Source: Chitinophaga pinensis (GTDB lineage Bacteria > Bacteroidota > Bacteroidia > Chitinophagales > Chitinophagaceae). From it: a DNA stretch of 45,928 nucleotides. Made by a program: the position numbers and the translations under genes. Under the pieces are notes generated by a model. The model worked only from the letters and a program-made list of their open reading frames with translations. It had not been told where the DNA came from and did not search any database. Shown piece after piece: positions 37,903 through 45,246 of the stretch (positions are counted from its first letter, which is position 1; the number at the start of each line of letters is the position of its first letter). The stretch spans positions 1-45,928 of the forward strand of contig CAMDFC010000011.1 in the NCBI GenBank assembly GCA_945897185.1, read 5' to 3'.

Positions 37903-39534
37903 ATGCAATTTCTCGGACCCATTGATTGGCTATTTGTCGTTTTGTATCTACTTGTAATTGGAGGAGTTTCTATTTGGAGCATTAGAAAAAGCAAGGAAAC
38001 CACATCCGATTATTTTTTGGCCAACCGGAATTTGGGTTGGTTTGTGATTGGCGCTTCTATTCTGGCTTCCAATGTAGGTTCAGAGCACATTGTTGGACTA
38101 GCAGGTTCCGCCGCGAAGTCCGGTGCTGTTTTGGGCCACTATGAATTACATTCTTATATCGTTCTCATTCTTGGTTGGGTTTTTGTGCCATTTTATATAC
38201 GCAGTTCGGTATACACCATGCCAGAGTTTTTGGAAAAGCGTTTCAATCCACAAGCAAGAAGATTACTCACTATTATTCAATTGATCAGTTATGTAATTGC
38301 AAAAGCTTCTGTAACTATTTTTGCAGGAGCGCTTGTATTCAATCAGTTTTTGGGAGTAGATTTCTGGACGGGAGCGATCATATTAGTGGTGGTTACAGGC
38401 GTTTACACCATTTTTGGAGGATTGCATGCGGTAATGTATACGGAAGCCATACAAGCAATCGTGTTGTTATCAGGTTCATTTTTATTGCTTGTATTTGGTT
38501 TGAGAGAAGTAGGAGGATGGGATAGTTTGATGCAATCTTTGCCCAAAGAAAAGCTGAATATGTTTTTGCCGTTGAGTGATCCTGAATTTCCGTGGTTGGG
38601 TATTTTGTTTGCGTCTCCTATTGTGGGGGTTTGGTATTGGTGTACCGACCAACATATTGTACAACGTTGTTTGGCAGCCAAAAATGAGCAGGAAGCAAGG
38701 CGCGGGACTATTTTTGCAGCGCTATTAAAACTTCTCCCTTTCTTTATTTTCCTTATACCAGGATTGATTGCATATACGTTAAGTGCGCAAGGGAAGATTC
38801 AATTGGATGATGCAAATGCTGCATTTCCAGTAATGGTAAAAGCAGTTATGCCAATTGGTTTGAGAGGTGTATTGGCTGGTGGATTGTTGGCTGCGTTGAT
38901 GGGTTCATTGGCTTCTGTTTATAATGCATGTTCTACTTTATACACGATTGATATTTATAAAAAATCACATCCTGATGCAACAGAAAAAGAATTGGTGAAA
39001 GTGGGCCGTATTGCAACTGGTGTTATTGTTTTGTTGGGTATGGCTTGGATTCCTATGATGGGCAAAATTGACAGTGGTTTGTATAATTATTTACAGAGTG
39101 TACAATCTTATTTGGCGCCGCCAATATCTGCAGTCTTTTTGTTGGGGGTATTTTTTAAGCGTCTTAATGCGCAGGGAGCTTATACTTCAATGGTTGCAGG
39201 TTTTATTTTAGGTATGGGCAAACTCTGTTTGCAAATCTTTAAAGATAGTTTAGCACCTTCAGGATACTTGTATCAGTTTGCAACCATGAATTTCCTTTAT
39301 TTCTGTATTTGGTTGTTCCTGTTTAGTATTGTTGTTTTTGTAACGATAAGTTTAATGACTGCTGCGCCAAGTGAAGAGAAAGTAAAGGGACTTACTTTTG
39401 CAACTACCGTTGCGGAAGACAAGGCGGCGAGCCGCGCTACCTGGAATTGGGTGGATGTGGTTCTTTCCGTATTTGTATTGGTGGTGATACTTGGTATCTT
39501 CCTTTATTTTTCACCATTGGGAATAGCCAAGTAA
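37903..39534 (+). CDS. Sodium/solute symporter (SSS family, SGLT-like)
   Basis: Sodium-driven importer of 543 residues with about 14 membrane segments. The start IDWLFVVLYLLVIGGVSIWSIRKSKETTSDYFLANRNLGWFVIGAS is recognised by its TTSDYFLANR and ASNVGSEHIVGLAG parts. VYTMPEFLEKRFNPQARRLL, VGVWYWCTDQHIVQRCLAAKNEQEARRG and AALMGSLASVYNACSTLYTIDIYKK match sodium/glucose and sodium/galactose carriers such as vSGLT. The substrate is probably a sugar or sugar-like compound, not proven. The gene stands alone, 63 bases after icmF, and ends before a strong terminator hairpin. Confidence 0.9.
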   Translation: MQFLGPIDWLFVVLYLLVIGGVSIWSIRKSKETTSDYFLANRNLGWFVIGASILASNVGSEHIVGLAGSAAKSGAVLGHYELHSYIVLILGWVFVPFYIRSSVYTMPEFLEKRFNPQARRLLTIIQLISYVIAKASVTIFAGALVFNQFLGVDFWTGAIILVVVTGVYTIFGGLHAVMYTEAIQAIVLLSGSFLLLVFGLREVGGWDSLMQSLPKEKLNMFLPLSDPEFPWLGILFASPIVGVWYWCTDQHIVQRCLAAKNEQEARRGTIFAALLKLLPFFIFLIPGLIAYTLSAQGKIQLDDANAAFPVMVKAVMPIGLRGVLAGGLLAALMGSLASVYNACSTLYTIDIYKKSHPDATEKELVKVGRIATGVIVLLGMAWIPMMGKIDSGLYNYLQSVQSYLAPPISAVFLLGVFFKRLNAQGAYTSMVAGFILGMGKLCLQIFKDSLAPSGYLYQFATMNFLYFCIWLFLFSIVVFVTISLMTAAPSEEKVKGLTFATTVAEDKAASRATWNWVDVVLSVFVLVVILGIFLYFSPLGIAK

Positions 39535-39601: not shown

Positions 39602-41026
39602 TTAGTATTTAGGCACCGGTGGTGGTCCGTCTGGTAACATTGCTTTCCATACTTCATTGCCTTTTCTTTTCTCGAATTCCGCACGAATTTCTTTGCGTAG
39701 TGTTTCGTTTTCAAAAAGATCTACCATGGTGGTACCCAAAGATTTTGCTGCAAACAACATTCCTTTGTGCCCAATACTCATACCACCGCAAGCGACAACC
39801 ACCCAAGAATGCCAAGGAGATTTGTAGGGAGCAGTTGCAGCGTTGAGGGTAATTTCAGGAACGATATAGCTTATATCACCAACATCAGTAGAGCCACCAT
39901 CAGGATCTGGACGAGTTGTTTCCATTGGTTTTATAGCACCATTGATGCCCAGTGGTTCAGATCCATATTCTTTCATGATTTTGTTGGCAAATGCAATTTC
40001 TTCTTCTGTGTATTTGATGGGTCCAACCAATTCCATGTTTTTATGTAGCACTTTAGCACCAGTTTCATTTACCAACAGTTCATAAAGTCCGTTGTCCATA
40101 AAGAAACTTGCTTCGGTTCTGGTCATTCTAGCAGCACCTTCTGCAATCTCTTTCATTCTTTCTTCTACGGCAGCAACCCCACTTCTTTTTGAATCGCGGA
40201 TCCAGATCCATACACTGGCTTCGTCGGGAATAACGTTGGGAACATTTCCTGCATTTTTATATACATAATGAATACGAACGCTGGGTTTGATGTGTTCCCG
40301 AAGGAAGTTTATACCGACATTAAAAAGTTCTGCAGCGTCTAATGCGCTTTTGCCATTCCAGGGATCAGCAGCAGCGTGGGCGCTTTTACCTTTAAACGAA
40401 ACAGTAAAACTCACAATGGCTTGTGTGCTTTGCATATTGGCTTTGTTTTCATAATCTGGATGCCAGTCGAGGCACACATCCAAATCATTAAACACACCAT
40501 CTCTTGCCATATACACTTTACCCGCGAGGTCTTCTTCGGCAGGTGTACCGTAGAACCTAATGGTTCCTTTTAACTTTCCAGAAGCGATTAATTCTTTGAT
40601 GGAAACAGCAGCACCGAGACTAGCGGCGCCAAACATGTTATGACCGCAACCGTGACCAGCCGCTCCTTCTTTTAATGCTTCTTTAGTGGATTGTGCTTTT
40701 TGAGACAAGCCAGGCAATGCATCAAATTCGCCCAGAATACCAATGATGGGTTTACCAGATCCATATTCTGCGATGAAGGCAGTGGGAATACCCGCAATAT
40801 TTTTGGTTACTTTAAATCCTTGTTTTTCTGCATAATCGGAAAGCACTTTTGCAGATTGGTGTTCTTTCATTGCAATTTCTGCATGAGACCAAACCTGATC
40901 GCTCAAAGAAATCAGTTCATTTTCATGTTTTGCAACAGATTGGATAACTGATTGTTTGTTGACTGGTATGGATTGGGCAATACTACCCAAAGAAATAAGA
41001 AGGAATGGTATAATTAATTTCATCAT
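39602..41026 (-). CDS. Secreted M20-family amidohydrolase (AbgB-like)
   Basis: Zinc amidohydrolase of 474 residues with a signal peptide (MMKLIIPFLLISLGSIAQS). The M20/AbgB features are LSDQVWSHAEIAMKEHQSAKVL, GILGEFDALPGLSQ, EGAAGHGCGHNMFGAASLGAA (metal and general-base region), GTPAEEDLAGKVYMARDG, SAHAAADPWNGKSALDA and GGSTDVGDISYIVPEI. These match the B subunit of aminobenzoyl-glutamate hydrolase and related amidases. AbgB itself is cytoplasmic, while this protein is exported, so its substrate is likely an N-acyl amino acid or peptide outside the cell. It ends in a proline-rich PDGPPPVPKY. A GH16 remnant lies directly upstream on the same strand. Confidence 0.87.
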   Translation of the reverse strand: MMKLIIPFLLISLGSIAQSIPVNKQSVIQSVAKHENELISLSDQVWSHAEIAMKEHQSAKVLSDYAEKQGFKVTKNIAGIPTAFIAEYGSGKPIIGILGEFDALPGLSQKAQSTKEALKEGAAGHGCGHNMFGAASLGAAVSIKELIASGKLKGTIRFYGTPAEEDLAGKVYMARDGVFNDLDVCLDWHPDYENKANMQSTQAIVSFTVSFKGKSAHAAADPWNGKSALDAAELFNVGINFLREHIKPSVRIHYVYKNAGNVPNVIPDEASVWIWIRDSKRSGVAAVEERMKEIAEGAARMTRTEASFFMDNGLYELLVNETGAKVLHKNMELVGPIKYTEEEIAFANKIMKEYGSEPLGINGAIKPMETTRPDPDGGSTDVGDISYIVPEITLNAATAPYKSPWHSWVVVACGGMSIGHKGMLFAAKSLGTTMVDLFENETLRKEIRAEFEKRKGNEVWKAMLPDGPPPVPKY

Positions 41027-41045
41027 ACCATGAATATACTAATTA

Positions 41046-41347
41046 CTATTGTTTCAAAGGATAGTAACGTACGTAATCAACTTCCAATTTTATTGGGAAA
41101 ATTGCATCATCAACACCTTTTAATCCTCCCCAGTTTCCACCAACAGCGATATTAATTAAAAGATGTTGGGGTTGAATGAAAGGCCATTCTTGCCAGAGTG
41201 CTCCCTGTTTTTTAAAGACAAAAAACTCCTTGTCATCTAAAAAAACCTTTATTTAATCCAGTGTCCAATCCATACGATACACGTGAAATTGCTTTTAAAA
41301 GTGCCTAGTTCTCTAAAAGAAAAGCCTTCAAAAAATGACGGCTCGCT
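41046..41347 (-). pseudogene. Broken C-terminal remnant of a GH16 beta-glucanase/laminarinase
   Basis: On the minus strand the end of a glycoside hydrolase family 16 protein is readable over about 100 codons: SEPSFFEGFSFRELG, then FHVYRMDWTLD, IKVFLDDKEFFVFKK, LINIAVGGNWGGLKG and IFPIKLEVDYVRYYP, ending at the TAG in 41046-41048. The frame is broken by a TAA at 41253-41255 between WTLD and IKVF and by a loss of one base near 41288. The catalytic ExDxxE region and everything before it are absent, and upstream DNA shows no further match. This is a dead gene fragment, most likely left by a deletion. It lies 19 bases before the M20 gene. Confidence 0.88.
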
Positions 41348-41506
41348 TTACAGAAGGGTACAGCGCACCTGAACAGTAATCAATAGTAATGCTGCTGTAT
41401 TTTAAATATACAGTAATAGGATTAAATATAGGCAAATACTATAGTGCACATAGATACATACTATAATTAGTCAAACAAGAGGTTATAAAAGCTTTAACAG
41501 TAGTTA
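41348..41506. other. AT-rich gap with no recognisable gene
   Basis: No reading frame or family match is seen. The only structure is an inverted repeat at 41395-41413 (CTGTAT and ATACAG arms around TTTAAAT). The missing N-terminal part of the GH16 gene once probably occupied this side. Confidence 0.4.
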
Positions 41507-41537
41507 TTTGGTATTGATTTACAATAGTTTATCTTTG
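41507..41537 (+). promoter_or_regulatory. DEAD-box helicase promoter (TTTG-N19-TATCTTTG)
   Basis: TTTG at 41507-41510 and the perfect TAnnTTTG element at 41530-41537 are separated by exactly 19 bases. This is one of the two best promoters in the window. Transcription should start near 41544, leaving a leader of about 130 bases. Confidence 0.65.
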
Positions 41538-41544
41538 CGCCTCT

Positions 41545-41672
41545 TGATGTTATTGCTCTTTGTGTTTGTGCAGTTTTTCTCCCCAAATATGTTGTTGTTC
41601 TAACGTAAGGCAGATAAAGCATCGATTCCGTAGCGGTGGCCTTATCACATTTTTCATTTAATTATTACAAAA
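41545..41672 (+). other. Long 5' leader of the DEAD-box helicase mRNA
   Basis: About 130 bases lie between the predicted transcription start and the GTG. They contain TAAGGC at 41606-41611 pairing with GCCTTA at 41639-41644 around a 27-base loop that holds a smaller CCG/CGG hairpin, then an A/U-rich stretch to the start codon. Helicase leaders of this size in other bacteria take part in cold-induced or autoregulatory control. No known riboswitch is recognised here. Confidence 0.35.
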
Positions 41673-42911
41673 GTGTCATTTAAAAATTTAAGACTCATTG
41701 AGCCTATATTGAAGGCTTTGGACCAAGAAGGTTATGAAACCCCCACTCAAATTCAAGAAAAATCAATCACCCCAATTCTAGACCGCAGGGATATTTTGGG
41801 GTGTGCGCAGACTGGAACTGGAAAGACCGCAGCATTTACCATTCCTATTTTACAGCTGATGCACGAACACCGCGAGGCCAGTAGTAGCCGTGTAAGAACC
41901 ATCGATTGTTTAATACTGACTCCTACCCGTGAGTTGGCTATTCAAATTGGAGAAAGTATTGCTGCCTATGGCAGACACCTAAGTTTGAGGCACCACGTAG
42001 TATTTGGTGGTGTTTCCCAACATGGTCAGGTTAATGCCATTAGAAATGGTGTTGATATTTTGGTTGCCACGCCAGGCAGGTTATTGGATTTGATGCAACA
42101 AGGGCATATCACTTTATCCAATATCAAATTTTTTGTTTTGGACGAAGCGGATCGCATGCTCGACATGGGTTTTATCCATGATGTGAAGAAGGTGATTGCT
42201 AAACTTCCAGCCAAAAGACAATCTCTTTTCTTTTCTGCAACCATGCCCCCTGAGATCAGTCAGCTTGCAGACATGTTGTTGAAAAACCCTATTAAAGTTG
42301 AGGTTACACCCGTTTCTTCAACAGTGGAGATCATTCAGCAAGCAGTTTATCATGTAGATAAAAACGACAAACAAGATTTGTTGATTGATCTACTCAAGGA
42401 TAAATCTATTGAAACCTTGTTGGTGTTTACGCAAATGAAACATGCGGCGGATAAGCTTTCTAAGCGATTGATTGCTTCGGGTATTTCAGCTGCAGCTATT
42501 CATGGAAACAAGTCGCAGAATGCACGTCAAGCTGCCTTGGAAAATTTCAAAAATAAAAAAGTTAGGGTTCTTGTTGCAACAGATATTGCAGCGAGAGGAA
42601 TTGACATCGATCAATTGTCGCATGTACTTAATTTCGAACTACCCAATGTACCCGAGACCTATGTTCACCGTATTGGCAGGACAGGCAGGGCAGGTGCTTC
42701 TGGTATTGCTTTGTCATTTTGTAGCAGAGAAGAAAAGGCTTATTTGAAGGACATCGAAAAATTGATAAAGAAATCTATCCCAGTTACACAATGGGCTGGA
42801 AGTACTGCTGAATCAAGTTCCGAGAGAACAATGCAGCGGTCACCAAAAGTTGAAATGCGTCAGTCGTCTAGGCGAATGGCTGTTCAAAAACGAGATATTG
42901 TTTTTGGCTAG
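41673..42911 (+). CDS. DEAD-box ATP-dependent RNA helicase (RhlE-like)
   Basis: RNA-unwinding ATPase of 412 residues, used in ribosome assembly or mRNA turnover, often induced by cold. The start codon is GTG ([16 protein letters not shown]). All motifs are present: F-L-x-Q motif region [13 protein letters not shown], motif I AQTGTGKT, Ia [11 protein letters not shown], Ib [14 protein letters not shown] ([13 protein letters not shown]), [34 protein letters not shown] and [12 protein letters not shown]. The C-terminal tail of about 45 residues is basic ([12 protein letters not shown]), typical for RNA binding. The assignment to the RhlE subgroup is based on general resemblance. Confidence 0.95.

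Positions 42912-42951: not shown

Positions 42952-45246
<2,295 letters not shown>

Follow-up and report, generated by a model that had tools for sequence, protein, structure and literature searches.

Enzymes of the GH16 family carry a catalytic motif of the ExDxxE type, and a polysaccharide utilisation locus is a SusC/SusD pair next to enzymes. The sequence described here lies towards one end of a 45,928-nucleotide stretch of Chitinophaga pinensis DNA (the window, meaning the whole stretch analysed), where part of a GH16 gene is found next to an M20 family amidohydrolase gene. The remnant resembles the C-terminal part of the profile of this family, which has laminarinase-like members such as PDB 3iln, but it differs from the enzymes of the family in having neither the active-site region nor an open frame. 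Truncation, an internal stop and an intact syntenic orthologue in a relative are features that it shares with bacterial deletion pseudogenes, from which no notable difference was apparent. The sequence is an ordinary pseudogene, the 3′ remnant of a GH16 gene, and it makes no enzyme. The features of the region are as follows, where G008 denotes a genome of the same genus that is 99% complete.

37903 to 39534, plus strand: SSF sodium:solute symporter, sharing 85% identity with the G008 symporter situated between GH10 and GH67 genes
39602 to 41026, minus strand: M20 family amidohydrolase, intact, 474 aa, the downstream partner of GH16 (Pfam M20, NCBIfam TIGR01891 above cut-off, synteny)
41046 to 41288, minus strand: GH16 remnant, the C-terminal 80 codons plus stop codon (Pfam, G008 protein match, gap-free DNA alignment)
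41253 to 41255, minus strand: in-frame TAA stop within the remnant (codon reading)
41289 to 41305, minus strand: possible continuation of the GH16 gene after a frameshift (with one base left out, 10 of 17 match)
41306 to 41477, no strand assigned: junction linking the remnant to helicase upstream sequence, with no relative among 59 other genomes (DNA search)
41673 to 42911, plus strand: DEAD-box RNA helicase, RhlE-like, across the break (family scans; NCBIfam RhlE models match, but below their cut-offs)

A profile search of the genome with Pfam GH16 (PF00722) matched positions 41115-41303 with 30.8 bits (E 2.2e-7) against a curated cut-off of 22 bits, the match covering profile positions 106-167 of 175. 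Similarly, the G008 GH16 protein matched 41049-41303 through its residues 204-288 (of 288) at 75% identity (E 3.7e-44, an E-value for one genome), so that the survival of a GH16 C-terminus, which a sequence-only reading of this DNA had proposed, is upheld. The stop codon of the gene occupies 41046-41048 on the minus strand, and the 80 codons that precede it align without gaps to the G008 gene at the DNA level, up to 41288. The premature stop noted in the same reading was located exactly, the TAA at 41253-41255 being codon 12 of the remnant. Both the Pfam and the G008 protein searches placed two TAA codons within the matched span, the second of which falls upstream of 41288, in a part whose reading frame is uncertain. 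If one missing base is allowed near 41288, 10 of the next 17 upstream bases are identical to the intact gene, a match reached by 308 of 20000 shuffles when seven registers were tried. The frameshift that the sequence-only reading had placed near this point is accordingly plausible, though weakly supported and not secure, whereas its end for the fragment, 41347, lies too far out, since similarity ends at about 41288-41305. Indeed, DNA alignment with G008 and comparison with the GH16 proteins of relatives revealed nothing convincingly GH16-like beyond about 41305, and among the protein matches listed none convincingly extends the remnant past about 41300; the 30 frames of this comparison were taken automatically and many were wrong, making it noisy, and only true GH16 rows (e.g. 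L033, L036, L038, L039) were used.

The remnant begins at residue 204 of the orthologue, past the EIDIMEH motif, and the catalytic motif is therefore absent, as the sequence-only reading had supposed. That reading had stressed a frameshift and a stop; the stop was rightly noted and the frameshift is plausible, but the main lesion is the loss of approximately the first 200 codons (about the first 70% of the gene), active site included. The remnant is without an open reading frame bearing a start codon, and the list of open reading frames in the window contains none of 60 aa or more that covers it. The suggestion that a small functional protein is encoded here was rejected on account of this lack of a frame and of the in-frame stop.

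Comparison of the same locus in relatives, which had been advised at the outset, revealed an intact GH16 gene in G008 beside the same amidohydrolase and symporter. It encodes a protein of 288 aa (L017:5741-6607) that contains EIDIMEH, has a lipoprotein-like start as judged by eye and scores 82.1 bits against Pfam GH16. Among solved structures it comes closest to laminarinases and beta-1,3-glucanases (3iln, E 5.7e-89, residues 50-285 aligned), and the former activity of the window's gene would presumably have been on laminarin or mixed-linkage glucan. A DNA search of 59 relatives (60 genomes with its own) returned a long match to the remnant only in G008, with 75% identity over 249 bases; seven other genomes matched short parts of the remnant (29-106 bases), accompanied in G013 and G025 by a match to the helicase side. 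A single alignment between the window and G008 spans the GH16 stop, the intergenic gap and the start of M20 (336 bases, 74%, 4 gap positions), and because it runs through the gap into M20, the remnant and the G008 gene are taken to be one gene in one and the same position. G008 was the only genome in which an intact GH16 gene was found here.

Gene order in the window is symporter, M20, GH16 remnant and DEAD-box helicase, and that in G008 is GH67, SSF symporter, GH10, M20, GH16 and Exo_endo_phos. An adjacent symporter and M20 pair was found in seven genomes, including G024, whose contig stops about 0.2 kb from M20 and is uninformative on GH16; GH16 lies beside M20 in two of the seven (the window and G008), GH10 is present in two (G008 and G026), GH67 in one (G008) and Exo_endo_phos in two (G008 and G001). 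Searches across these seven found none of GH10, GH67 or Exo_endo_phos in the window genome. G026 combines symporter, GH10 and M20, and a different open reading frame lies 24 bases away from M20; G001 carries symporter, M20 and Exo_endo_phos, and its gap of 81 bases is too short to hold GH16; and in G013 and G025 other genes lie directly beyond the symporter and M20. When 92 loci were compared (G008, eleven further loci of the same genus and 80 named loci, some repeating these), GH16 adjoined M20 only in G008, a count that is a lower bound because many flanks are short; L099 has a GH16 gene more than 6 kb away. Within L017 7454-12426 of G008, genes for a GH10 xylanase, an SSF symporter and a GH67 alpha-glucuronidase stand side by side, and of these the window keeps the symporter only. 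The sequence-only reading had seen in the region a former glycan-use locus, for which the GH10 and GH67 genes of G008 offer some support; a dedicated laminarin locus is unsupported, a family scan having revealed no SusC/SusD among ten proteins from the window and G008.

Orthologue residues 1-203, which make up the catalytic part, had no match elsewhere in the window genome when this was searched with the G008 protein. An intact catalytic domain displaced by misassembly, which the sequence-only reading had named as evidence against gene loss, was thus not found, the only other GH16 genes being two paralogues, both full-length, with 52% and 44% identity to the G008 protein. Both have open frames (272 and 392 aa) with EIDIME present, and their neighbours do not resemble a glycan locus as judged by eye from lists of open reading frames. 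Since two intact GH16 genes remain, the enzyme type has not been lost from the genome.

Taken with the lesions described above, these comparisons make it very probable that the GH16 gene upstream of M20 was truncated by a deletion or rearrangement, which left the remnant abutting sequence from upstream of the helicase gene. A secreted GH16 beta-glucanase, laminarinase-like and probably a lipoprotein, would once have been encoded directly upstream of the M20 gene and on the same strand. A deletion or rearrangement in the lineage of the window would then have taken approximately the first 200 codons of the gene, including the active site, and the Exo_endo_phos neighbour would have been removed along with this 5′ part. 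The leftover sequence would have been joined to the upstream region of the DEAD-box helicase gene. Whether before or after the deletion, the gene also acquired its in-frame stop and, probably, a frameshift. We infer a single event and the order of events. Exo_endo_phos, found next after M20 in G001 and next after GH16 in G008, and the GH16 5′ part are both without a match in the window genome (G000), which fits one deletion or rearrangement as the simplest explanation.

The join could instead have been created during assembly, the contig wrongly linking the GH16 and M20 side to the helicase side of an organism in which an intact GH16 gene exists. The genome consists of 129 contigs and a chimera at 41306-41477 is conceivable, the more so as this region has no relative and as M20 and the helicase gene are on separate contigs in G013 and G025, which align with the window only from about 41478 onwards, in the region upstream of the helicase. 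A chimera would not, however, explain the stop at 41253-41255, which lies at a distance from the join where the alignment is good, and no match to the N-terminal part of GH16 or to Exo_endo_phos turned up elsewhere, the completeness of the genome being rated at 98.5%. An artefact of this kind is consequently considered improbable, and truncation of a resident gene the preferred explanation.

Some indication of when that truncation occurred is provided by the substitutions in the remnant. Over 79 codons (the stop codon being skipped) there are 41 synonymous and 19 nonsynonymous differences from G008, equating to pN 0.102 and pS 0.823. Corresponding values are pN 0.109 and pS 0.778 for the symporter (542 codons), and pN 0.073 and pS 0.792 for M20, where 228 codons were compared and the initial few fall at the break in a G008 copy that is itself damaged. 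The divergence of the remnant mostly arose while the gene was constrained. Because its substitutions still resemble those of a constrained gene, the loss was probably fairly recent, although synonymous sites are saturated and give no date, so that 'recent' is meant qualitatively. The recent loss of a beta-glucan-degrading enzyme suggested by the sequence-only reading is probably right for this gene copy, but not for the enzyme type.

In a tree of the symporter and M20, G008 groups with G026 (support of 92 for protein and 89 for DNA), and a branch with moderate to weak support (81 for protein, 54 for DNA) parts the window and G001 from the rest; two outgroup loci that have just M20 nest within the set next to G013, which leaves the root unsure. 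Should this topology be correct, the ancestor of the window and G008 had GH16, which was then lost more than once, or else the gene moved between lineages. That the window and G008 are not sisters, and are the only genomes in which GH16 was seen beside M20, would also be in keeping with the fragment having arrived as a piece, through transfer or incomplete duplication of the 3′ end of a GH16 gene, with no full gene ever present here. This is highly improbable, given that the M20 junction is the same in both genomes and aligns through the intergenic gap, and that the paralogues within the genome reach just 52% and 44% identity with the G008 protein, as against 75% for the remnant.

The M20 gene of G008 (L017 6624-7348) has itself lost residues ~21-245 and falls out of frame beyond the signal peptide, next to an intact GH16 neighbour. 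It is conceivable, if unlikely, that the two loci represent reciprocal erosion, the window having kept M20 and lost GH16 and G008 having kept GH16 and lost part of M20, as though both genes served one dispensable function that decays gene by gene.

Considered alone, the truncated GH16 gene matters little, as just another carbohydrate-enzyme gene that has decayed in a small Bacteroidota genome, and it serves as a clean example of loss where a relative still has GH16, GH10 and GH67 genes. Among the literature matches listed, and in the portions of text available, no report was found on the decay of GH16 in a comparable setting or on the helicase leader described below, which is not proof of absence. 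Just past the helicase gene, a 741-aa open frame at 43021-45246 contains two stretches that match Pfam peroxidase, and by eye this resembles a catalase-peroxidase.

Arguably of more interest than the remnant is the conserved leader of the helicase gene (41530-41672, plus strand), a candidate cis-regulatory RNA. It opens with TATCTTTG at 41530-41537, which we take to be a Bacteroidota-type promoter box, followed by approximately 135 bases that contain a hairpin at 41605-41646. In an alignment of 17 sequences, picked by similarity, all five pairs of the upper stem of the hairpin show changes on both sides. Below it are two mutually exclusive basal helices with a common 3′ strand: that preferred by the consensus fold has 7 pairs, 4 of which are invariant and 3 of which vary on one side only, and the alternative, drawn by eye, has 5 pairs with all cells paired, one pair being A-U in 9 sequences and G-C in 8. 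With the upper stem and the first basal helix taken together, 97.0% of cells are paired vs 91.6% in shuffles, and 14 cells are changed on both sides vs 3.0; with the second, the values are 98.2% vs 88.6%, and 23 vs 5.7. Further pair types were not above shuffles, the observed value being reached by 401 of 500 for the first structure and 487 of 500 for the second.

Autoregulation has been described for the helicase CrhR of Synechocystis (PMC3485376), and because of this precedent an autoregulatory role for the leader would be a reasonable guess, as would a temperature-responsive one. No Rfam match to the leader was obtained at E values up to 1. Matches to its DNA were present in 19 of 117 genomes of the family, the window's own included, and absent from the other 98; fourteen of the 18 other matches precede a helicase orthologue and the remaining four, all short, showed none. 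An RNA model running from promoter to start codon gave two matches in 247 genomes of the class, the window's own included, in a search that scored 12 candidates per genome and is thus no measure of the leader's distribution. The second of these matches is in another family, where it likewise precedes a helicase gene.
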